Shown here piece by piece: positions 40,401 through 49,418 of a DNA stretch of 64,000 nucleotides. The position numbers and the translations under genes were made by a program. Every line of letters begins with the position of its first letter. Within the stretch, counting starts at the first letter, position 1. Under the pieces are notes generated by a model. That model worked only from the letters and a program-made list of their open reading frames with translations, was not told the origin of the DNA and did not search any database. Origin of the DNA: Rufibacter latericius (lineage in GTDB: Bacteria; Bacteroidota; Bacteroidia; Cytophagales; Hymenobacteraceae); assembly GCF_003721515.1 (NCBI RefSeq), contig NZ_RJJD01000023.1, positions 55,735 to 119,734 on the forward strand, read 5' to 3'.

Positions 40401-40432
40401 TTGTTTTTGTAAAACTTGTGCCCTTACCTTTA
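40401..40432 (+). promoter_or_regulatory. Promoter of the SAM-riboswitch/SusCD transcript
   Basis: TTG at 40401-40403, 21-base spacer, then TACCTTTA at 40425-40432 (seven of eight to TAnnTTTG). It precedes the aptamer by 18 bases. Confidence 0.6.
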
Positions 40433-40449
40433 GGGCATCTTTATTGGAG

Positions 40450-40552
40450 ATTTATAAAGAAGAGGCGAGAGAGCAGGCTCCAAGACCCTCTAGCAACCTT
40501 CGGCCCGGCCGAAAAGGTGCTAACACCTGCCCATTTGTTGGGAACTATAAAT
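40450..40552 (+). promoter_or_regulatory. SAM-I (S-box) riboswitch
   Basis: The conserved core of the S-box aptamer is visible: AGAGGCGAGAGAGC, GGCTCCAAGACCCTCTAGCAACC and AAAAGGTGCTAACACCTGCC. A 7-bp closing helix P1 (atttata 40450-40456 with tataaat 40546-40552) frames it, and a GC-rich P3-like loop lies between. The aptamer ends nine bases before the start of a 30-residue Cys-ending frame, so there is no space for a classical terminator. It likely controls translation of that leader frame. Downstream structural genes are SusC and SusD. Confidence 0.87.
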
Positions 40553-40560
40553 AATTGACC

Positions 40561-40653
40561 ATGCAACCACAGATTTTGCAACCTCGCTTGACCTCTGACA
40601 GCCATCCTGCCTCCCGGCAGTTCCTGCACATGCAGGCTTGTTGTTGCTGTTAG
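40561..40653 (+). CDS. Leader peptide 1 (ends in four Cys)
   Basis: This 30-residue frame begins MQPQILQPRL and ends in HMQACCCC followed by TAG. It starts nine bases after the riboswitch P1 helix, in the same -gaccATG- context as the leader before the M14 peptidase. The coding strand is rich in C and poor in G. It has no signal peptide or fold. I read it as an attenuator leader whose translation speed reports charged Cys-tRNA, in the manner of cysteine-ended leader frames described in mycobacteria. A hairpin with stem tcacc/ggtga lies at 40692-40705. Confidence 0.7.
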   Translation: MQPQILQPRLTSDSHPASRQFLHMQACCCC

Positions 40654-40746
40654 AGCTGGCGCCACCTCCTTCTTTCCTGGCGTAACCTTGGTCACCTTTC
40701 GGTGAGGCACGCCTATGTATTCCTGTTTCTTAACACAATTACCCCT

Positions 40747-40872
40747 ATGAACCATTCTTTACCTTCCTCTTCCCCGGAAGACCATGCTCTCACCGGAGCA
40801 TTTTACTTGTCTTCCGCTGCTGCTCTAACCAGAAACACTGTGCCTGCCTGCACCCGAATGTGCTGTTGTTGA
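40747..40872 (+). CDS. Leader peptide 2 (ends ...ACTRMCCC)
   Basis: This 41-residue frame begins MNHSLPSSSP and ends PACTRMCCC followed by TGA, 106 bases before the SusC start. Like leader 1, it is rich in C and poor in G in its first half, and its last seven codons carry four cysteines plus a Met. That three independent short frames in the two riboswitch leaders end alike makes chance unlikely. It could be a second attenuator stage. Confidence 0.65.
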   Translation: MNHSLPSSSPEDHALTGAFYLSSAAALTRNTVPACTRMCCC

Positions 40873-40978
40873 TACAGGTTTCTCTAGGGCTAAAACCATA
40901 GTTTCCTTTCTGTCTTGAAATCACCGGTATCGTCCTGAGGCCGGGTAGAAATAATCTTGTCTTTATTATTTTATAAAA

Positions 40979-43900
40979 ATGAAAACGTATACAAGTAGTA
41001 CTCTAAAAAGTCTAGTAAGTCTAGGGGTATTATTAGCAATATTGCTGACCCATGCTGCTTTTGCCCAGGCGCAGACCGTTACCGGGCAGGTAACGGGTGC
41101 CAAAGGCAATGAAGCCCTGGCGGGCGTAAGCGTGGTCCTGAAAGGCACTACCAGCGGTACCTTCACCAACGCCGAGGGGCGCTTCTCCATCCCAGTCAAA
41201 TCCGGCCAGACACTGGTGTTTTCCAGTATCGGGTATACTTCTCTAGAGGCTGTGGTGAATGGAAGCACCGTGAACGTGACCTTGAAAGAAGACACCAAAA
41301 GCCTGGAAGAAATTGTGGTGGTAGGCTACGGAACGCAGTCGCAGCGGGCGGTTTCCAGCTCGGTGAGCACCGTGAACGTGGAAGACCTGCGGGGCTTACC
41401 GGTTACTTCCCCAGACCAATTGATCCAGGGGAAAGCGGCCGGGGTGCAGATTTCCTCAGCCAGCGGTGCGCCGGGCGGTGGTATCAGCGTGAGTGTGCGC
41501 GGGGCTACTTCCATTAACGCCAGCAATTCTCCTTTATATGTGATTGACGGAGTGTTCATCAACAACCAGTCGCTGAGCAACCTGGGCCTGGGCGGACAGA
41601 CCTTCAACCCGCTGGCGGATTTGAACCCGGCGGATATTGAAAGCATCCAGGTACTGAAAGATGCCAATGCCACGGCTATTTACGGGTCAAGGGGAGCCAA
41701 CGGTGTGGTATTGATCACCACTAAGCGCGGCAAACTGAACGCGGGCTCCAAGATTAGTTTCCAGACCTACTTCGGTTGGGCCAAGGCGCCTAAGCTCTAC
41801 GAAACCGTGAACGCTCAGCAGGAGGCCGAACTCATCAACGAGGCGTTCCTGAACGATGGCGGCGCTTTCGCTTCCCGTCCGTTTCGTCCCAAAGCCGAGG
41901 GTGGCCGCGGTTTGCCTGAGGAGCAGACCACATATTCCCGTATTCCGGATGTGTTCCAGACCGCCAAAACCCAGAGCTATGATTTGTCGGCTTCGGGTGG
42001 GTCAGACAAAAGCCGGTACTTTATTGGCGGCAGCTATTTCTCGCAGGAAGGGATTGTGAAACCGGCCCAGTTTGAGCGTTTCAGCGGTCGGTTTAACTTT
42101 GACCATAACCTTAGTGAGAAACTGACGGTGGGCATCAGTGCCTCGGGAGCGTACAGCCACCGCAACGTGAGCCGCAACGACAACAGCGCGCAGGGCGTGA
42201 TCAACTCTTCTTTGTACGTGCAGACGTTTTTGCCCGTGTTCAATGAGGACGGCAGCTACGCCCGCCACAGCATCTTTGACAACCACCTGGCGCTTATTGA
42301 GAACCTGAACATGCAGGGGCACAGCAACCGCCTCATCGGGAACCTGTACGCCGAGTACGAGATTCTGCCGGGCTTGTCATTTAAATCCAGCTGGAGCCTG
42401 GATTACAACAGTTACATTGACAAGGTCTACAACAACACCCAAATTAGCGTGGGCCTTCCCGCCGGGAACGGCAGCAACACCCAATCCAGCCTAGTGACAC
42501 TTATCAATGAGCAGGTCTTGACCTACAACAAAGCCCTTGGCGATGACCACCGTTTGAACCTGGTTTTGGGAAATACCCTCCAAAGCACCAAATACAACTT
42601 CCTGACGCTCTCAGGCCAGAAATTCCCGAGCGATAATTTCCAGGAAATCGCTTCTTCGTCCATCCAGACGGGCAGCACCAGTTCCAGCCAGAATGGCTTG
42701 GTGTCTTTCTTCGGGAGGGCGAGTTACACGTTCAGAGACAAGTACAGCCTGGATGGTAGCCTCCGCGCCGATGGTTCTTCTAAGTTCGCTGCGGGCAATA
42801 AATGGGGCTACTTCCCGTCGGTAGGGGCAGCCTGGATTATCTCAGAAGAGGCCTTCGCGAAAAGCCTGCCGTTTGACCAGATCAAGCTGCGCGCCAACAT
42901 CGGGTTGTCAGGTAACCAGAACGGCATCAGCGATTTCCCCTCGCAGAGTTTGTGGAGAGCCGGTAGAAACTACCAGAACAACCCAGGCATCAGCCCGAGC
43001 CAGTTGGGCAACCCCGATCTGACCTGGGAGACTACCCGCCAGTGGAACGTGGGTCTGGACTTGGCGTTCCTGCAGAACCGCATCAAAGTGGAGGCCAATT
43101 ACTACAGCAAATACACCAAAGACCTGTTGATTCAGGTGCCGGTGCCGTCCAAACTGGGCTACTCCAGCGTGTATGAGAACCTGGGCGAGGTGAGCAACAA
43201 AGGGGTGGAGCTGAGCATTTCCTCGGTGAACATCCAGAAAGATGATTTCCAGTGGTCCACGGACTTCAACATCGCCAGAAACAAGAACCGCATTGAGAAA
43301 CTGCCTACGCCTATCACCGCCCACTCCCGCGACTGGGTGCGGATGGAGCAAGGCAATTCGCTCTTCGCTTTCTGGGTGTATGACCAACTGTATGTAGACC
43401 CGCAGACCGGCGATGCCGTGTACGATGACGTGGACAAAAACGGCACCATCACCACCGCCGACCGCAAGATTCTGGGCAATGGCGCCCCGGATTTCTTCGG
43501 GAGCTTGAACAACACCGTGCGCTTCAAGCGGTTCGATTTAGGGGCCCTTTTGTATTTTCAGTCCGGAAACGACATCATCAACCTGAACCGTTTCTTTCTG
43601 GAGCACGGCGGTACCCAGAGCGGCATCACCTTCTTCCCGAACCAGCTGAACAGATGGCAAAAGCCCGGCGACATCACGGATGTGCCCCGTCTGACCAAGA
43701 AGGGCAACAACTACACCCTGCCCAGCAGCCGCTACTTGGAAGACGGTTCCTTCCTGCGCCTGCGCTCCATCACCCTGGGCTACAACGTGCCTACCGAGCT
43801 GGTGAACCGCTTCAAAATCTCCAACCTGCGCCTGTACGCCCTGGCCACCAACCTCTGGACGCTCACCAACTACAGCGGCCTTGACCCCGAGGTGAACGTA

Positions 43901-43990
43901 GCCGCGAACAACCAGAACGTGCTGGGCATTGACCACGCCGTGGTGCCGCAGCCCAGAAGTTTCCAAATAGGTGCCAATGTTACTTTCTAA
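40979..43990 (+). CDS. SusC/RagA-type TonB-dependent receptor
   Basis: This 1003-residue protein has a signal peptide (LLAILLTHAAFAQAQ), a CarboxypepD_reg-like domain (about 35-110, VTGQVTGAKGNEALAGVSVVLKGT), and the plug with the SusC hallmark LYVIDGVFI and IYGSRGANGVVLITTKRG. A 22-strand barrel ends in IGANVTF. SusC proteins import ligands with the help of a SusD lid and TonB energy; RagAB-like pairs import peptides. It follows a SAM riboswitch and two leader frames, so it probably imports a sulfur-bearing nutrient. SusD starts nine bases after its stop. Confidence 0.93.
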   Translation: MKTYTSSTLKSLVSLGVLLAILLTHAAFAQAQTVTGQVTGAKGNEALAGVSVVLKGTTSGTFTNAEGRFSIPVKSGQTLVFSSIGYTSLEAVVNGSTVNVTLKEDTKSLEEIVVVGYGTQSQRAVSSSVSTVNVEDLRGLPVTSPDQLIQGKAAGVQISSASGAPGGGISVSVRGATSINASNSPLYVIDGVFINNQSLSNLGLGGQTFNPLADLNPADIESIQVLKDANATAIYGSRGANGVVLITTKRGKLNAGSKISFQTYFGWAKAPKLYETVNAQQEAELINEAFLNDGGAFASRPFRPKAEGGRGLPEEQTTYSRIPDVFQTAKTQSYDLSASGGSDKSRYFIGGSYFSQEGIVKPAQFERFSGRFNFDHNLSEKLTVGISASGAYSHRNVSRNDNSAQGVINSSLYVQTFLPVFNEDGSYARHSIFDNHLALIENLNMQGHSNRLIGNLYAEYEILPGLSFKSSWSLDYNSYIDKVYNNTQISVGLPAGNGSNTQSSLVTLINEQVLTYNKALGDDHRLNLVLGNTLQSTKYNFLTLSGQKFPSDNFQEIASSSIQTGSTSSSQNGLVSFFGRASYTFRDKYSLDGSLRADGSSKFAAGNKWGYFPSVGAAWIISEEAFAKSLPFDQIKLRANIGLSGNQNGISDFPSQSLWRAGRNYQNNPGISPSQLGNPDLTWETTRQWNVGLDLAFLQNRIKVEANYYSKYTKDLLIQVPVPSKLGYSSVYENLGEVSNKGVELSISSVNIQKDDFQWSTDFNIARNKNRIEKLPTPITAHSRDWVRMEQGNSLFAFWVYDQLYVDPQTGDAVYDDVDKNGTITTADRKILGNGAPDFFGSLNNTVRFKRFDLGALLYFQSGNDIINLNRFFLEHGGTQSGITFFPNQLNRWQKPGDITDVPRLTKKGNNYTLPSSRYLEDGSFLRLRSITLGYNVPTELVNRFKISNLRLYALATNLWTLTNYSGLDPEVNVAANNQNVLGIDHAVVPQPRSFQIGANVTF

Positions 43991-43999
43991 AAAACAGCC

Positions 44000-45379
44000 A
44001 TGAAAACGATTCTTACTTCCTATAAAACCTTTGTCTTAGCCGCCGCCGTCCTCTTCTCTAGTTGCGATTTGCTGGAGCCGGATCCGGCCACCGAGGTCTT
44101 GTCTTCCACTGCCCTGGTAGATGCCCGTGGTGCCCAGGCTGCCTTACTTGGTACTTACAGCGAGCTCCAAAGCAACAGCTACTATGGCCTGGATTATCCG
44201 GCTTTGTCTTACCTGTCCTCAGACGAGGCAGAGTCCATCGGGTCCTTTGACTTCTACCGGCAGTTTGACCGCAACGGCATCCAGTCAGAGAACAGCTCTA
44301 TCCTGAGCACCTGGCGGCAGATTTACCGCGTGATCAACCTCGCCAACAACCTCATTGCCGATGTGCCGGCCATCCAGGACCCAGCCTTAACCGATAACCT
44401 CCGGAAAAGCATCCTAGCTGAAGCCCATTTCCTGCGCGGCTTGGCGTACTTTGACATCGCCCGGGCCTGGGGCGGCGCCCAGTTGGTTCTCACACCAACA
44501 GATTCTAAACTGGACGGACAAGGCATCGGGCGGTCCACCAAAGCCGAAACCTACGCCCAGGTGCTGTCAGACTTGAACCAAGCCGAGCAGTTTTTCACCG
44601 AGGTGGAGAACGGAGCCGTGGGAGCTTCCTACACTACACCCGCCCGTGCCTCCTTGCTGGCCGTCTGGGCCCTGAAAGCCCGCTTCTACCTCTACCAGGA
44701 AAACTGGACCGAGGCCGAGAACTACGCGACCAAGGTGATTGAAGTGAAAAAAGCCCAGCTGGTGTTCCCGTACGAGCAAACCATCCAGGGTCTGCTCACC
44801 CCGGAAAGCATCCTGGAACTGGCCTACACCACCGCCAACGGCAACAGCCACGCGTCTTATTGGCTGCCCAGCTCAAGCGGCGGTCGCCTGGAGTGGATTC
44901 CTGGCCAAACTATCACCAGCGAGTTGCGCAACCCAGCCGTGGGTGGAGCCCGTAGCATCCTCATCGGGACCTCCGGTGCCATTGTCTACGGCAAAAAATA
45001 CTTCCGGAACGGTACCAGCGATGACCCTGCATTCCTGCTGAGAATCTCCGAACAGTACCTCATTCGCGCTGAAGCCCGCGTGAAGAAAGCCGCTCCTGAC
45101 CTGGCAGGCGCCCTAGCCGATGTGAACGCCATACGGGAAAGAGCCCGCCTAGAGAAACTGACCTTGACTGATGCACCAGGGCTGTTGCTGGCCATAGAGC
45201 AGGAACGCAAACTGGAACTCGCCTTTGAAGGCCACCGCTGGTTTGACCTCATCCGCACCGGCCGCGCCCAAGCCGTGCTAGGCATCACGGACCCCAACAA
45301 GTTCCTGTACCCCATTCCTAATGCTGACATTGTCGCTGACCCAGACCTGGGACCGGAAGACCAGAACCCAGGATATTGA
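44000..45379 (+). CDS. SusD/RagB-type nutrient-binding lipoprotein
   Basis: This 459-residue lipoprotein (LFSSCDLLEPDP, lipobox Cys23) has the SusD layout of TPR-like helices (ALVDARGAQAALLGTYSELQS; HFLRGLAYFDIARAWGGAQLVLT; SLLAVWALKARFYLYQENWTEAENYATKVIEVK) and the typical C-terminal ending (LLAIEQERKLELAFEGHRWFDLIRTGRA). It acts on the cell surface as the lid and ligand-binding partner of the SusC at 40979. The pair forms one operon with a single terminator after it. Confidence 0.93.
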   Translation: MKTILTSYKTFVLAAAVLFSSCDLLEPDPATEVLSSTALVDARGAQAALLGTYSELQSNSYYGLDYPALSYLSSDEAESIGSFDFYRQFDRNGIQSENSSILSTWRQIYRVINLANNLIADVPAIQDPALTDNLRKSILAEAHFLRGLAYFDIARAWGGAQLVLTPTDSKLDGQGIGRSTKAETYAQVLSDLNQAEQFFTEVENGAVGASYTTPARASLLAVWALKARFYLYQENWTEAENYATKVIEVKKAQLVFPYEQTIQGLLTPESILELAYTTANGNSHASYWLPSSSGGRLEWIPGQTITSELRNPAVGGARSILIGTSGAIVYGKKYFRNGTSDDPAFLLRISEQYLIRAEARVKKAAPDLAGALADVNAIRERARLEKLTLTDAPGLLLAIEQERKLELAFEGHRWFDLIRTGRAQAVLGITDPNKFLYPIPNADIVADPDLGPEDQNPGY

Positions 45380-45402: not shown

Positions 45403-45438
45403 AAAAGGAGTGCCGCCCTGCGGTACTCCTTTTTTTTT
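45403..45438 (+). terminator. Rho-independent terminator of the SusCD operon
   Basis: Stem aaaaggagtgccgc/gcggtactcctttt (one G-T pair), three-base loop, followed by eight T. Confidence 0.88.
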
Positions 45439-45612
45439 ACGATGTTTTGGGACTGTTTTTAGGAAAAGGGGTTTAAAGCAGTGTTGTATTTGAGGGTTTG
45501 AACAATTAAAGGGGTAGACTTGGAGTAGGTTGGAGCTTTGGATTGATGTGTATTCTATTGATACCTTATTTGTGAGTAAATTGTGGTTGTATAATGATCT
45601 AACAAAAGCATA

Positions 45613-46312: not shown

Positions 46313-48919
46313 CTATTCCTCTTCCTCTGCCCCAGCAGGTACACCACCAACGGTTTTAATAATGTTGCCAAAGAACAGGGCGTTGAAGAACAGGCGGTTG
46401 GTGCCGTACCAGCTTCCCCGGAAATTAGGGTTGTCAGCAAAAAGCACCACGGTGCCCTGGCCTTGGTTCTGCGCTAACAAGGAAGCGGAGTTGGCGATTT
46501 TCTTCAGGTTGGCTTTAGACACGTACCCACTTTGTAGCGGATTAGCGGTGTACTGGGCCACCGTTTCATACGAATTCTTGCTAGGAGCCAGGAATACGCT
46601 GCTGTTGCGGTACACGCTCAGTTTACGCGAGGTGTAGCCGAAGGCCAGCGGGTGGGTGATATCCAAGTCAGTCTCGTAAATAGAGCCGCCTACTGATTTG
46701 GCGCCTTCCAGTTCACGGGCGTTGACGTAGCCCTGGCGCACAGTTTTCGTGGCAGTATCAGCGGGAGAGATAAGGCGGGCATTGGCGATGCCTTGTTTGA
46801 TGGCCCACTCAGAGGCGGTTTTGAACGTAATCAAAGTGCCGCCTTCGGTCACCCAGCGCTTCAGCTTGTCCACGGTGTTTTTGTCCAGGCTATTGTAGGA
46901 TCCGCTCACCAGCACGATGGTGTTGTAACGGGCCAAAGGCAGGCGTGGGAAAGAGCTGAACTCGGCTTTGGTGATAGGCATCTTCAACTGCGAATCCAAC
47001 AGGAACCACACCTCTCCGGCCTCCGGGCCCATCACGCCGTTGCCTACCAGCATCAGCGCCTCGGGTTTGCGGATGGTCTGGATGTTGCTGCTGCCTAAGT
47101 CAATGCCTTTCGCGCTGAACCCGCTGTTCACTGAGGCGATGTTGATTTTGCGGTCCGCAACTACTTTCTGGATGGCTTTGTACAGTGAATCACCAGAGAT
47201 TTTCTGAGAAGCTACCGGAATGGTGATGGCACCCGGCAGATAGTCTTTGGCTCCGGCCGTTGTGTTAGCCGTGAAAGGTTTCAGAGCGGTTTGGGCGATT
47301 ACGCCCAAGGATTGCAGTTGGTACAGGGCACCGGCGGTGTTGTAATCGGTCCAGTCTAGCAGGTAGGCGTAGTTGCTTTTTGGAGGAGCAGTGGCGGTGA
47401 GAGCGGGGAGCGTAGCTACACGGCTTCCGCGGTTCACGGGTTTGGTCGCGCCCACGTGTGGCAGGCCATAAGCCAGGGCCAGGGTCCAGGTGGAGGCATC
47501 GTAGAACACGCTGTCGGGGAGATTGGTGTTCTTCGCGAAGATGGATTCTACCAGGCGGTACTGCGGTTGCTCGGTGGGCACTACAAAGGATTTCCCTTTC
47601 TCAAAGGCGGTGCCGTTGATGGTCTGGTTACCCGGCAGTTCATACACCTCAATTTTGTGGGCCAGAAGCAGTTCCGTGAAATTACGCAGGCGGGTGGCAT
47701 CGTGCTTCTCGCCGTACACGTAGGCTTTCACCGGGTTCTTACGGCCATCGGCGATGCCGGATTTATAGAACTCTCGCTGGTGTTTCAGGAAAGTTTCCCG
47801 ATTCTCCACGGCGCCTTTCACGGTAGCCAAACCGGTGCTCAGGTGGTTCCGGATCCCGAAGGCGAAGGTCAGCACGCCAGTGGAGTTCTCCTGGCGGTTG
47901 CCGCGGGAACTGGCTTGCTCAGTGGTGATGCCCACGCCACCCTGGAAATCAGGATAAGTGGAGCCGTAGCCGGGATAGATATTGTCGTACTGCTCTTTGG
48001 TGAAATACAGCGACCCGATCTCGTCCAGCGCGGCGGCGTGGTACTTGGCGATGATCACGTTTAGGTTGTCATAGGTGCTGCGGGGCACCAGATAGTTCTC
48101 AGAGCCGTAGGGTTTGCTGGGCTCAAAGTAGTAGGTGGAGTTGGTGCCCATCTCGTGGAAGTCGATGACTACGTTAGGCAGCCACTCATGGTAAAATTTC
48201 AGGCGGTTTTTACTTTCCACGTGCGCAATGGGTAGCCAGTCGCGGTTCAGGTCAAACCAGTAATGGTTGCCACGGCCGCCGGGCCACACCTCGTTGTGCT
48301 CCCAATCGGCGGGGTCAGCTACGGATGGGTCGCTCTGGTGCACGTTGATCCAGTTGGCGTGGCGGTCACGGCCATCGGGGTTATGAGCAGGGTCGAGCAA
48401 AATAACGGCCTCTTTCAACGCACGTTGCGTTTCCGGGTCTTGGTTGGCGGTGTAGTAGTAGGCGGTGAGGAGGGAGGCTTCCAGGCTGGAGGCCTCGTTG
48501 CCGTGCACGCTGTAGCCCAGGTTCACGAACACCGGCGCAGTGCCCAGGTTAGGCAGTGGTTTGGAAACATCGGCGAGTTGCAGGTGTTCTTTGCGGATGT
48601 CCTCCAGGCGGGTGTGGTTCTCAGGCGAGGTGATGATGGCCACCACCTGCGGCCGCAGTTCATAGGTAAACCCAATGGTCTGCACTTTCACTTTGTCTGA
48701 TAACCGGTCCAGTTCTTTGAGGTAAGCCACCGATTGCTCGTAGCGGCTGTGGCGTTCACCTATGCCGTAGCCCAGAAACTGCTCGGGCGTAGGAATGGCG
48801 GTGTCAAAATTCTTCGTCTTCGGGAAATAATAGCTGCTTTGCGCCAGGGCTGGAACGATGGTCAGAACCCAGGCGGCCAGGACCAGAAGTGGCCTGTAAG
48901 TACGTAAGGATGATTTCAT
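46313..48919 (-). CDS. M14 family zinc metallopeptidase (carboxypeptidase-like), exported
   Basis: This 868-residue protein has a signal peptide (MKSSLRTYRPLLVLAAWVLTIVPALAQ) and an M14 catalytic domain: zinc ligands His139 and Glu142 in GYSVHGNEAS, the third His255 in NVVIDFHEMGTN, and the substrate segment LLDPAHNPDGRDR. The C-terminal half has a ThuA/GATase-like segment (RLPLARYNTIVLVSGSYNSLDKNTVDKLKRWVTEGGTLITFKTA). It should cleave peptides or modified cell-wall peptides in the periplasm or at the surface. Its leader carries a SAM-I riboswitch and a Cys-ending frame (49200-49418), which links it to sulfur amino acid supply. Confidence 0.9.
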   Translation of the reverse strand: MKSSLRTYRPLLVLAAWVLTIVPALAQSSYYFPKTKNFDTAIPTPEQFLGYGIGERHSRYEQSVAYLKELDRLSDKVKVQTIGFTYELRPQVVAIITSPENHTRLEDIRKEHLQLADVSKPLPNLGTAPVFVNLGYSVHGNEASSLEASLLTAYYYTANQDPETQRALKEAVILLDPAHNPDGRDRHANWINVHQSDPSVADPADWEHNEVWPGGRGNHYWFDLNRDWLPIAHVESKNRLKFYHEWLPNVVIDFHEMGTNSTYYFEPSKPYGSENYLVPRSTYDNLNVIIAKYHAAALDEIGSLYFTKEQYDNIYPGYGSTYPDFQGGVGITTEQASSRGNRQENSTGVLTFAFGIRNHLSTGLATVKGAVENRETFLKHQREFYKSGIADGRKNPVKAYVYGEKHDATRLRNFTELLLAHKIEVYELPGNQTINGTAFEKGKSFVVPTEQPQYRLVESIFAKNTNLPDSVFYDASTWTLALAYGLPHVGATKPVNRGSRVATLPALTATAPPKSNYAYLLDWTDYNTAGALYQLQSLGVIAQTALKPFTANTTAGAKDYLPGAITIPVASQKISGDSLYKAIQKVVADRKINIASVNSGFSAKGIDLGSSNIQTIRKPEALMLVGNGVMGPEAGEVWFLLDSQLKMPITKAEFSSFPRLPLARYNTIVLVSGSYNSLDKNTVDKLKRWVTEGGTLITFKTASEWAIKQGIANARLISPADTATKTVRQGYVNARELEGAKSVGGSIYETDLDITHPLAFGYTSRKLSVYRNSSVFLAPSKNSYETVAQYTANPLQSGYVSKANLKKIANSASLLAQNQGQGTVVLFADNPNFRGSWYGTNRLFFNALFFGNIIKTVGGVPAGAEEEE

Positions 48920-49199
48920 GTTGTTTTAAAGGTGATTTTCAAAAAATGGGTTAAAAGCGTAGCGGTGAGGAAAGACATTTCCGCAACAGCAAAGGGAGAG
49001 GAAGCGGAAGAGCGCCGCCAGGGTAGAGGAGAGGCAGGCGTGCAAAGAGTGCGTCCAGGCAAAGGCCGGTTTCTTTGCCCTTGCCTCCGCAAGTGCCGTG
49101 TACATAAGGAATGAAACTGAAATTGAGTCTTAGAAAATAGAGCTGCGCTGCATCAGCGCAGGATGGTAGAAGCCCGGGAGCCCGGAAAATCTAAGGAAA

Positions 49200-49301
49200 C
49201 TAACAGTAACAACAAGAAGGCATACAGGCAGTGGAGTCGCCTGAAGCAGTAGAGAATGAAAGAAGATTTGCGCTGTAAAGGTTGTGGCTGCTGCTACTCA
49301 T
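49200..49301 (-). CDS. Leader peptide 3 (ends ...ACMPSCCYC)
   Basis: This 33-residue frame (starting MSSSSHNLYS) ends in TACMPSCCYC before TAG. It starts four bases after the riboswitch, in the same -gaccATG- context as leader 1. Downstream, before the M14 gene, lie two perfect hairpins (49143-49161, 8 bp; 49174-49185, 5 bp). The frame is 280 bases before the M14 start. I read it as a cysteine-responsive attenuator leader. Confidence 0.7.
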   Translation of the reverse strand: MSSSSHNLYSANLLSFSTASGDSTACMPSCCYC

Positions 49302-49304
49302 GGT

Positions 49305-49418
49305 CTGAAAACTTATATTTCCCATTTGGCTGGGCAGGAGTTAGCACCTTTTTAACTTAGTTAACGGTTGCTAGAGGTTCTCAGAGCCTGCTCTCTCCCC
49401 TCTTCGGTATAATTTCAG
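49305..49418 (-). promoter_or_regulatory. SAM-I (S-box) riboswitch
   Basis: On the minus strand: AAGAGGGGAGAGAGC, GGCTCTGAGAACCTCTAGCAACC, and AAAAAGGTGCTAACTCCTGCCC, the S-box conserved blocks in the right order, framed by a closing helix (ctgaaattata 49418-49408 region and tataagttttcag 49317-49305). It is nearly identical in its core to the SusC-leader aptamer, and is followed by a Cys-ending frame and the M14 peptidase gene. Confidence 0.87.

Follow-up and report, generated by a model that had tools for sequence, protein, structure and literature searches.

The leader transcript of a SusC/SusD importer in Rufibacter latericius, which lies in a stretch of 64,000 nucleotides of contig NZ_RJJD01000023.1 (positions 55,735 to 119,734; hereafter the window), carries a conserved two-part sulfur leader of the Bacteroidota: an S-adenosylmethionine (SAM) riboswitch of class SAM-I, and directly behind it a short open frame with a run of cysteine codons at its end. 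The element joins two known kinds of leader, and it is more widespread than an earlier note on this DNA had proposed. On balance, we lean towards seeing such leaders, found in several orders of the phylum, as composite sulfur regulators, in which the SAM riboswitch, instead of governing the gene itself, allows a ribosome to probe the charging of cysteine (and methionine) transfer RNA (tRNA) at the end of a disposable frame. The duplicate frame that precedes SusC in Rufibacter and Pontibacter would then sharpen or widen the response, and swaps of parts would tune genes to SAM, to cysteine or to both.

In the window, the parts follow one another on the plus strand. A candidate promoter of Bacteroidota type, read from the sequence, occupies 40401..40432: a TTG at 40401-40403, which we take to be an upstream promoter element, is paired with the TAnnTTTG-type box TACCTTTA at 40425-40432. 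The SAM-I aptamer (Rfam family RF00162) spans 40449..40553 and scores 74.4 bits against a gathering threshold of 44.4; no other Rfam family reaches its gathering score in the window, and each leader has one RF00162 match. Leader frame 1, MQPQILQPRLTSDSHPASRQFLHMQACCCC followed by a stop, runs from an ATG at 40561 through a TAG ending at 40653; it encodes 30 amino acids with the tail MQACCCC, and its cysteine codons, TGTTGTTGCTGT, stand at 40639..40650. Leader frame 2, of 41 amino acids with the tail TRMCCC before its stop, runs from an ATG at 40747 through a TGA ending at 40872, with its cysteine codons, TGCTGTTGT, at 40861..40869. The frames are followed by the genes for a SusC/RagA TonB-linked outer membrane protein at 40979..43990 (TIGR04056, 888 bits; Pfam TonB barrel and plug) and a SusD/RagB family lipoprotein at 44000..45379 (PF07980, PF14322).

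The earlier note had named all of these parts, in this order, and had seen in them two candidate sensors of sulfur in one leader: indeed, the aptamer adjoins the frame start, and the cysteine codons are the conserved part. It erred on the distance from helix P1 of the aptamer to the frame start, given as nine bases: 7 nucleotides separate the end of the Rfam aptamer from the ATG of frame 1. The promoter box that it reported is present, one base off TAnnTTTG, which the accessible text of PMC9723704 gives as the sigma-A box; in one of five Rufibacter SusC orthologues, the promoter-like box reads TACCTTTG. With the transcript start where it is predicted, frame 1 sits behind the 105-nucleotide aptamer, that is, it is not leaderless. 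Among plasmid records, none resembling the SusC leader was found.

The association of aptamer and cysteine run can be compared with chance. RF00162 was searched in 16 genomes of the genus, 120 of the family, 194 of the order, 247 of the class and 247 of the phylum, samples that overlap, and 158 fetched loci were analysed; the best-scoring ones were fetched first, hence they are no random sample. An ATG frame of 8-90 amino acids starts within about 25 nucleotides of the aptamer in 86 of the 158 loci, and 52 of these 86 frames end in a cysteine run. The background is provided by the other ATG frames of the same size in the same loci, 15 out of 4881 of which end in such a run. Homopolymer runs of at least three residues within the 86 frames include 51 of cysteine, leucine coming next with 5. 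The 52 frames start 1-15 nucleotides after the aptamer, 47 of them at 6-12 nucleotides and 28 at exactly 9, the mode. Their last 15 residues contain 31% cysteine versus 0.5% in the body, 9.4% methionine versus 1.9%, and 9.6% arginine versus 3.1%.

A pattern blind to reading frame, made of the SAM-I core, a gap and three TGY triplets, was also run on a collection of 84,980 named genomes, and matched at least 120 stretches. Among the matches listed, 111 of 120 have an ATG near the aptamer, and the cysteine run is in phase with this ATG in 103 of the 111, and both in phase and in an open frame in 101; for the first 74 matches, 68 are in phase, with a binomial tail of 6e-26. Whereas the phase test covers 120 of these loci, peptides were tabulated for 80: their 77 frames hold 3-11 cysteines each, the stop stands directly behind a cysteine in 53 and within 1-4 residues of one in the rest, and TGT occurs 266 times and TGC 197 times. 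The genera among the listed matches are Pontibacter, Hymenobacter, Rufibacter, Chryseolinea, Marivirga, Thermoflexibacter, Pedobacter, Mucilaginibacter, Olivibacter and Membranihabitans, together with a metagenome-assembled genome of Psychroflexus; they cover the Cytophagales (Rufibacter, Thermoflexibacter), Sphingobacteriales (Mucilaginibacter), Saprospirales (Membranihabitans) and Flavobacteriales (Psychroflexus). RF00162 was confirmed in 14 of 14 re-checked Bacteroidota loci of the scan, including those of Membranihabitans and Psychroflexus; apart from L283, L285 and L293, also checked with Rfam, the remaining loci are assigned by the pattern. Four of the 120 listed matches have titles from outside the Bacteroidota: L220, L271 and L299 have neither RF00162 nor such a frame, and in L319 (Seinonella) a true SAM-I precedes metY without a cysteine leader, the TGY run lying inside the metY gene.

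The relatives of SusC provide a view of conservation. A protein search in the 120 genomes of the family yielded 34 places in 29 genomes at an E-value of 1e-280 or better, 30 of which were fetched. The earlier note had made the conservation of the cysteine codons and of the frame in homologous leaders the point on which its reading would stand or fall, and this conservation is strong: SAM-I and both cysteine frames precede all eleven of the closest orthologues, five of five in Rufibacter (96-100% identity) and six of six in Pontibacter-like genomes (72-73%). Across the eleven, frame 1 has 30-32 codons, the gap between frames 88-102 nucleotides and frame 2 41-44 codons, with 107-135 nucleotides left to the start of the match; the counterparts of frame 2 invariably have 2-3 cysteines among their last five residues. 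Between genera, the identity of the bodies is about 35% for frame 1 and 33% for frame 2, versus 72-73% for SusC. This tandem leader is also found in Pontibacter chinhatensis, before a SusC that is 73% identical to that of the window, and locus L285, with 73% identity over 967 amino acids, is retained as a SusC example. Locus L283, of Thermoflexibacter, was rejected as an independent SusC case: a promoter-like box, TATATTTG, stands between leader and receptor, and identity is 27% over 274 amino acids. The next twelve relatives (52-55%, genus g6) all have SAM-I and an adjacent frame whose tail is rich in cysteine and methionine, ten of these frames starting with GTG; at the g6 loci, a search among ATG starts found no second frame with a cysteine run. 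An aptamer with an adjacent cysteine-rich frame is thus present in the top 23 of the 30 fetched relatives.

Pontibacter also offers variants of this locus. In Pontibacter indicus (L293), SAM-I and both cysteine frames are retained, SusC and most of SusD are lost, and what appears to be a C-terminal remnant of SusD ends in VQNPGY. At L368, L370, L371, L373 and L285, SAM-I aptamers form a divergent pair, one on the opposite strand standing about 270-315 nucleotides upstream of the SusC aptamer.

The earlier note had tied the arrangement to SusCD importers, a scope that proved too narrow: among the fetched loci, the combination is most frequent before metY, and it reaches several Bacteroidota orders. 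Counted by gene, ATG frames with a cysteine run are found at 34 of 61 metY loci, 0 of 47 metH loci, 0 of 12 loci of pyridoxal phosphate (PLP) enzymes and 18 of 38 loci of other genes. A looser rule that admits GTG and TTG starts, with a background of 290 out of 9884, gives 35 for metY, 0 for metH, 0 for PLP enzymes and 21 for the others, a count in which 2 of 13 cysH frames start with TTG and may be due to chance. Both parts also occur before SusC, an M14 peptidase, a sulfite reductase-like protein (NIR_SIR domains), an OsmC-like protein, a YfhL-type ferredoxin, an NhaC-like protein (an assignment below cut-off) and the cysH gene of Membranihabitans; the genes that can be recognised below the leaders belong mostly to sulfur metabolism. 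The two parts are separable. In Rufibacter, cysH (PAPS reductase, PF01507) has a cysteine leader without SAM-I in six of six genomes with a match, out of 8 searched; its peptide, MVYSS[YH]I[KE]RMRFCCCS[SP]CCCC[CF], is encoded shortly downstream of a promoter-like box, and the leader has no Rfam match, loci L360-L362 being outside this check. Elsewhere in the family, SAM-I is found at 13 of 14 scanned cysH loci. An aptamer alone at metH, a leader frame alone at cysH, and both at metY and other genes fit a use of SAM or methionine and cysteine signals, singly or jointly.

The window itself holds a second copy of the arrangement, not mentioned in the earlier note, on the minus strand. Its aptamer, at 49310..49415, scores 77.3 bits with RF00162; frame 1, MSSSSHNLYSANLLSFSTASGDSTACMPSCCYC followed by a stop, lies at 49200..49301 and has 33 codons and the tail CMPSCCYC; frame 2, MYTALAEA...LSLCCCGNV... 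up to its stop, lies at 48926..49105 and has an internal cysteine run. The stop of frame 2 falls 6 nucleotides before the ATG of the gene behind this leader, which encodes an M14 zinc carboxypeptidase-family protein (46313..48919, PF00246). Frame 2 is found in five of five Rufibacter loci, with LCCWG in L022 and a frameshift past the cysteine run in L213.

The genome of R. latericius contains six SAM-I matches, five of them full-scoring and one under the cut-off. A cysteine-ended frame directly follows four of the five full-scoring ones, before SusC, the M14 peptidase, metY and a RimK-like ATP-grasp gene whose assignment scores below the NCBIfam cut-off; none directly follows the fifth, before metH. 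Locus L006 (C16:162804-162883 in this genome), where a SAM-I of 28 bits is followed by a frame that resembles the L003 leader and has no cysteine codons, looks like a decayed copy, and was excluded from all locus counts. The motif TGYTGYTGYTRR occurs at 117 places in the genome, 100 of which were listed. Inspection of 46 listed places that have a true stop and lie outside SAM-I leaders revealed a convincing ATG leader only at cysH; the ATG frames at L188, L189 and L206 were judged to be due to chance.

The pattern of indels, together with the phase of the cysteine run, supports the translation of the leader frames. In an alignment of 16 Rufibacter metY leaders (A1), from 16 of 16 genomes, all 8 pairwise indel cases inside the frame have a length of 3, 6 or 12, and the spacer has 44 indels, 26 of them of a single base. 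Five Rufibacter SusC leaders (A3) have no indel in either frame, and eight between the frames, five of a single base. In the M14 leaders, the indels of frame 1 are all of 3 bases (4 of 4), and frame 2 has one of a single base. All these counts are comparisons to one reference, and are not independent. Substitutions in the frames are about even across codon positions: what is kept is the frame and its cysteine codons, and the peptide is under no clear selection. Within the Rufibacter metY and SusC leaders, the cysteine run is nearly invariant in nucleotides. Taken with the background and conservation tests, the phase test leads us to reject chance or a simple repeat as the cause of the cysteine runs.

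Methionine codons stand among or before the cysteine codons of the tails in Mucilaginibacter, genus g6 and Pontibacter leaders (CICMCCCC, CCMPMRRACC, MRMRMRSCCC), which suggests that such leaders may read Met-tRNA as well.

We consider it likely, from the arrangement of the sequences, that these leaders are gated by SAM and sense cysteine. They would form a two-stage sulfur gate, with SAM acting at the first stage and charged Cys-tRNA, probably joined by Met-tRNA, at the second. The aptamer lies near the predicted 5' end of the transcript and, with SAM bound, its helix P1 would close a few nucleotides, usually 6-12, before the leader start codon, barring 30S subunits and ribosomes from the frame; a ribosome-binding site embedded in P1 is known for SAM-I, according to the accessible part of PMC2258182. 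When SAM is low, a ribosome would enter, pass some 25-45 almost cysteine-free codons, and reach the final run of cysteine codons, often accompanied by methionine. With ample charged Cys-tRNA, it would complete the frame and leave; when charged Cys-tRNA is scarce, it would stall on the run, and a ribosome stalled at the end of the leader would alter the fate of the RNA below, so that the gene is expressed. The gene would be fully on only with SAM and cysteine both short, a logic of AND type, and in the SusC leader the second, similar frame would repeat the cysteine test. A response of useful direction at cysH and metY would be expression at low cysteine.

As to the output, the most likely step, which we put forward tentatively and would stop short of calling probable, is that the stalled ribosome keeps Rho off the leader and spacer, which are rich in C and poor in G. 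The composition of the metY spacers speaks for this step, as does the outcome of our scans, in which no terminator conserved across genera was found. In the tna operon of Escherichia coli, a ribosome arrested at the end of the leader shields the RNA from Rho; here the run likewise stands beside the stop, but codon starvation would replace peptide arrest.

Several results weigh against this reading, or against parts of it. The loci share descent and were chosen best-scoring first, so that the counts are neither independent nor unbiased. Outside the window's class, 21 of 21 recognised metY loci have SAM-I and none has a cysteine frame. The pair is missing from the lowest seven SusC relatives (48-52%, 958-1070 bits), and in six of them the fetched stretch has no RF00162; among the seven, L390 has RF00162 about 1.2 kilobases upstream, and four have a poly-cysteine ATG frame without an aptamer. 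Frame 2 of the M14 locus has its cysteine run in mid-frame, with one of five copies frame-shifted and one of five having tryptophan in place of the third cysteine. The spacers below the metY frames are C-rich and G-poor, as the earlier note said of the SusC leader, with 24% C and 14% G, C exceeding G in 81 of 83 metY leaders, but this skew is unspecific: metH leaders, without cysteine frames, have 25% C and 18% G. Terminator-like hairpins occur in 23 of the 83 metY spacers; the mean score is 4.3 versus 2.1 in shuffled sequences, and intrinsic termination is possible in part of the members. Finally, the cysteine run is not clearly more complementary to the spacer (mean z -0.84) than a control drawn from the frame body (-0.64).

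The leaders of the most distant SusC relatives have features of their own. Those of L386, L387, L389, L391 and L392, which lack SAM-I, are directly preceded by an inverted repeat like GTCTAT..TCTATAGA, and in L387, L389, L391 and L392 a poly-cysteine ATG frame follows it; cysteine leaders alone may serve SusC paralogues too. Some 80-130 nucleotides before SusC, the leaders of L386, L387, L389 and L391 have a conserved stem with the inner hairpin GCCTCTGGtcCAGGC; this stem has no Rfam match in L387, L389 and L391, even at an E-value of 1, and is possibly an undescribed RNA element.

The folding of the spacers bears on another possible output. With the same two sensors, a stall could re-pair hairpins of the spacer, and hide or expose the start of the main gene or form an intrinsic terminator, so that the leader would act as an RNA switch or by translational control. 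In the polycysteine leaders of mycobacteria, pairing hides or exposes the main gene's start region. Here, the spacers have better folds than block-shuffled controls, with a median z of -1.5 and 56 of 83 below -1, and they also hold more terminator-like hairpins than shuffled sequences. In nine Pedobacter leaders, three hairpins are preserved; the first contains the cysteine codons, and the third has 5 pairs changed on both sides. For Rufibacter metY, an alternative fold is suggested in which the 5' arm of a hairpin in the spacer pairs with the cysteine run. The hairpins nevertheless vary between genera and follow no common design; pairing of cysteine run and spacer as a general device was rejected for want of excess over the control; and the leader stop lies at a median of 127 nucleotides upstream of the metY start (range 35-286), far for direct masking. 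We regard this kind of output as a possible one, if rather unlikely. No terminator conserved across genera was found, and an intrinsic terminator was rejected as general output: a scan of the plus strand of the window leader yields terminator-like matches at 40418, 40623 and 40784, but the match at 40418 overlaps with the promoter box, and A3 shows no conservation of the U-tract of the one at 40784. In a consensus fold of the five SusC leaders, the 5' strand of the aptamer pairs with the region around the SusC start; as no pair among them is changed on both sides, the fold says little. Two further observations concern the ends of leader and operon: in the Rufibacter metY leaders, including L005, the final 35 nucleotides before metY contain a conserved hairpin-like stretch, TTGTTCAATTTTTCAATTGTAACC, and in the window, after SusD, a strong hairpin and T run at 45408-45439 looks by eye like an intrinsic terminator, and is absent from the output of the scan.

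The remaining alternatives question the sensors themselves. The aptamer and the cysteine frame could be independent regulators that share a leader, the frame acting alone and without AND logic, and the occurrence of each part by itself, at metH and at Rufibacter cysH, is in keeping with this. Their near-fixed short distance is not: at such a distance, an effect of the aptamer on the main gene would hardly leave the frame untouched, and we hold independence to be unlikely. Less likely still, the frames could encode a functional cysteine-rich peptide under SAM control, a metal or redox sensor or a product acting in trans. The 3-11 cysteines of a frame might well bind metal, the leader peptide of cysH shows good conservation across six Rufibacter genomes, and frame 2 of the M14 locus is highly conserved; but the SusC leader bodies diverge between genera far more than SusC itself, while frame, length and cysteine tail persist, substitutions are even over codon positions, and the recognisable downstream genes are mostly those of sulfur metabolism. 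Lastly, the TGY repeat could be a nucleotide motif, a structure or a protein site whose translation is incidental, as the near-invariance of the run in Rufibacter metY and SusC leaders might suggest. The phase found by the frame-blind search among the matches listed, and the wide use of both TGT and TGC, make this the least credible of the explanations, with very little in its favour.

If SAM-gated, cysteine-sensing control is confirmed, these leaders would amount to a small natural logic gate that couples a metabolite aptamer with a sensor of tRNA charge, in a phylum whose control of translation start and termination is poorly understood. They would show how Bacteroidota separate the demand for SAM from the demand for cysteine, would point to a sulfur-nutrient function for a SusCD importer of unknown substrate, and would provide a testable system for riboswitch-gated coupling of translation and transcription.

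Searches of the open-access literature, judged by titles and the beginnings of abstracts, brought up no description of a SAM riboswitch combined with a poly-cysteine leader; an earlier description in subscription papers is possible. Each half has relatives, which we compare here on the accessible portions of the sources. Cysteine-ended leaders are known from mycobacteria, as the earlier note had stated (PMC9094748, PMC1262725): the polycysteine short open reading frames (ORFs) of Canestrari et al. (2020, Mol Microbiol), as cited in PMC9094748 and PMC13236596, are likewise short upstream frames with a cysteine run near the stop and form a cysteine-responsive attenuator, but they are leaderless, have no riboswitch and belong to Actinobacteria, whereas here the aptamer comes first and the start is internal. 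The candidate leader peptides of cys and cbs operons in Actinobacteria (PMC1262725) also have runs of cysteine codons near the stop and no conserved terminator, Rho being suggested there too; the portion available mentions no riboswitch, and the phylum is another one. Before cysS in Rhodobacterales, the uORFC-8-2 motif (PMC8632094) is again a leader frame with tandem cysteine codons, described with an intrinsic terminator, without a riboswitch, and in Alphaproteobacteria. Within the Bacteroidota, leader peptide attenuation of amino acid operons is mentioned for a flavobacterium (PMC9723704).

Gating of a short frame by a riboswitch is known from Mycobacterium tuberculosis. In the relay of ppe2 (PMC11260477), a B12 riboswitch gates an upstream ORF (uORF) whose translation decides downstream expression; coupling goes through an AUGA overlap, and the accessible text describes no run of amino-acid codons. 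In the leader of pe20 (PMC12810186), an Mbox riboswitch controls the translation of a small frame, with termination by Rho; there the signal is Mg2+, the uORF is conserved as a protein, and no codon-run sensor appears in the part at hand. Two signals, one of them read by a SAM-I riboswitch, also meet in a single leader before metE of Bacillus clausii, where SAM-I and adenosylcobalamin (AdoCbl) riboswitches stand in tandem (PMC2258182); both of those sensors are aptamers, each controlling transcription termination independently of the other, whereas the leaders described here have one aptamer each.
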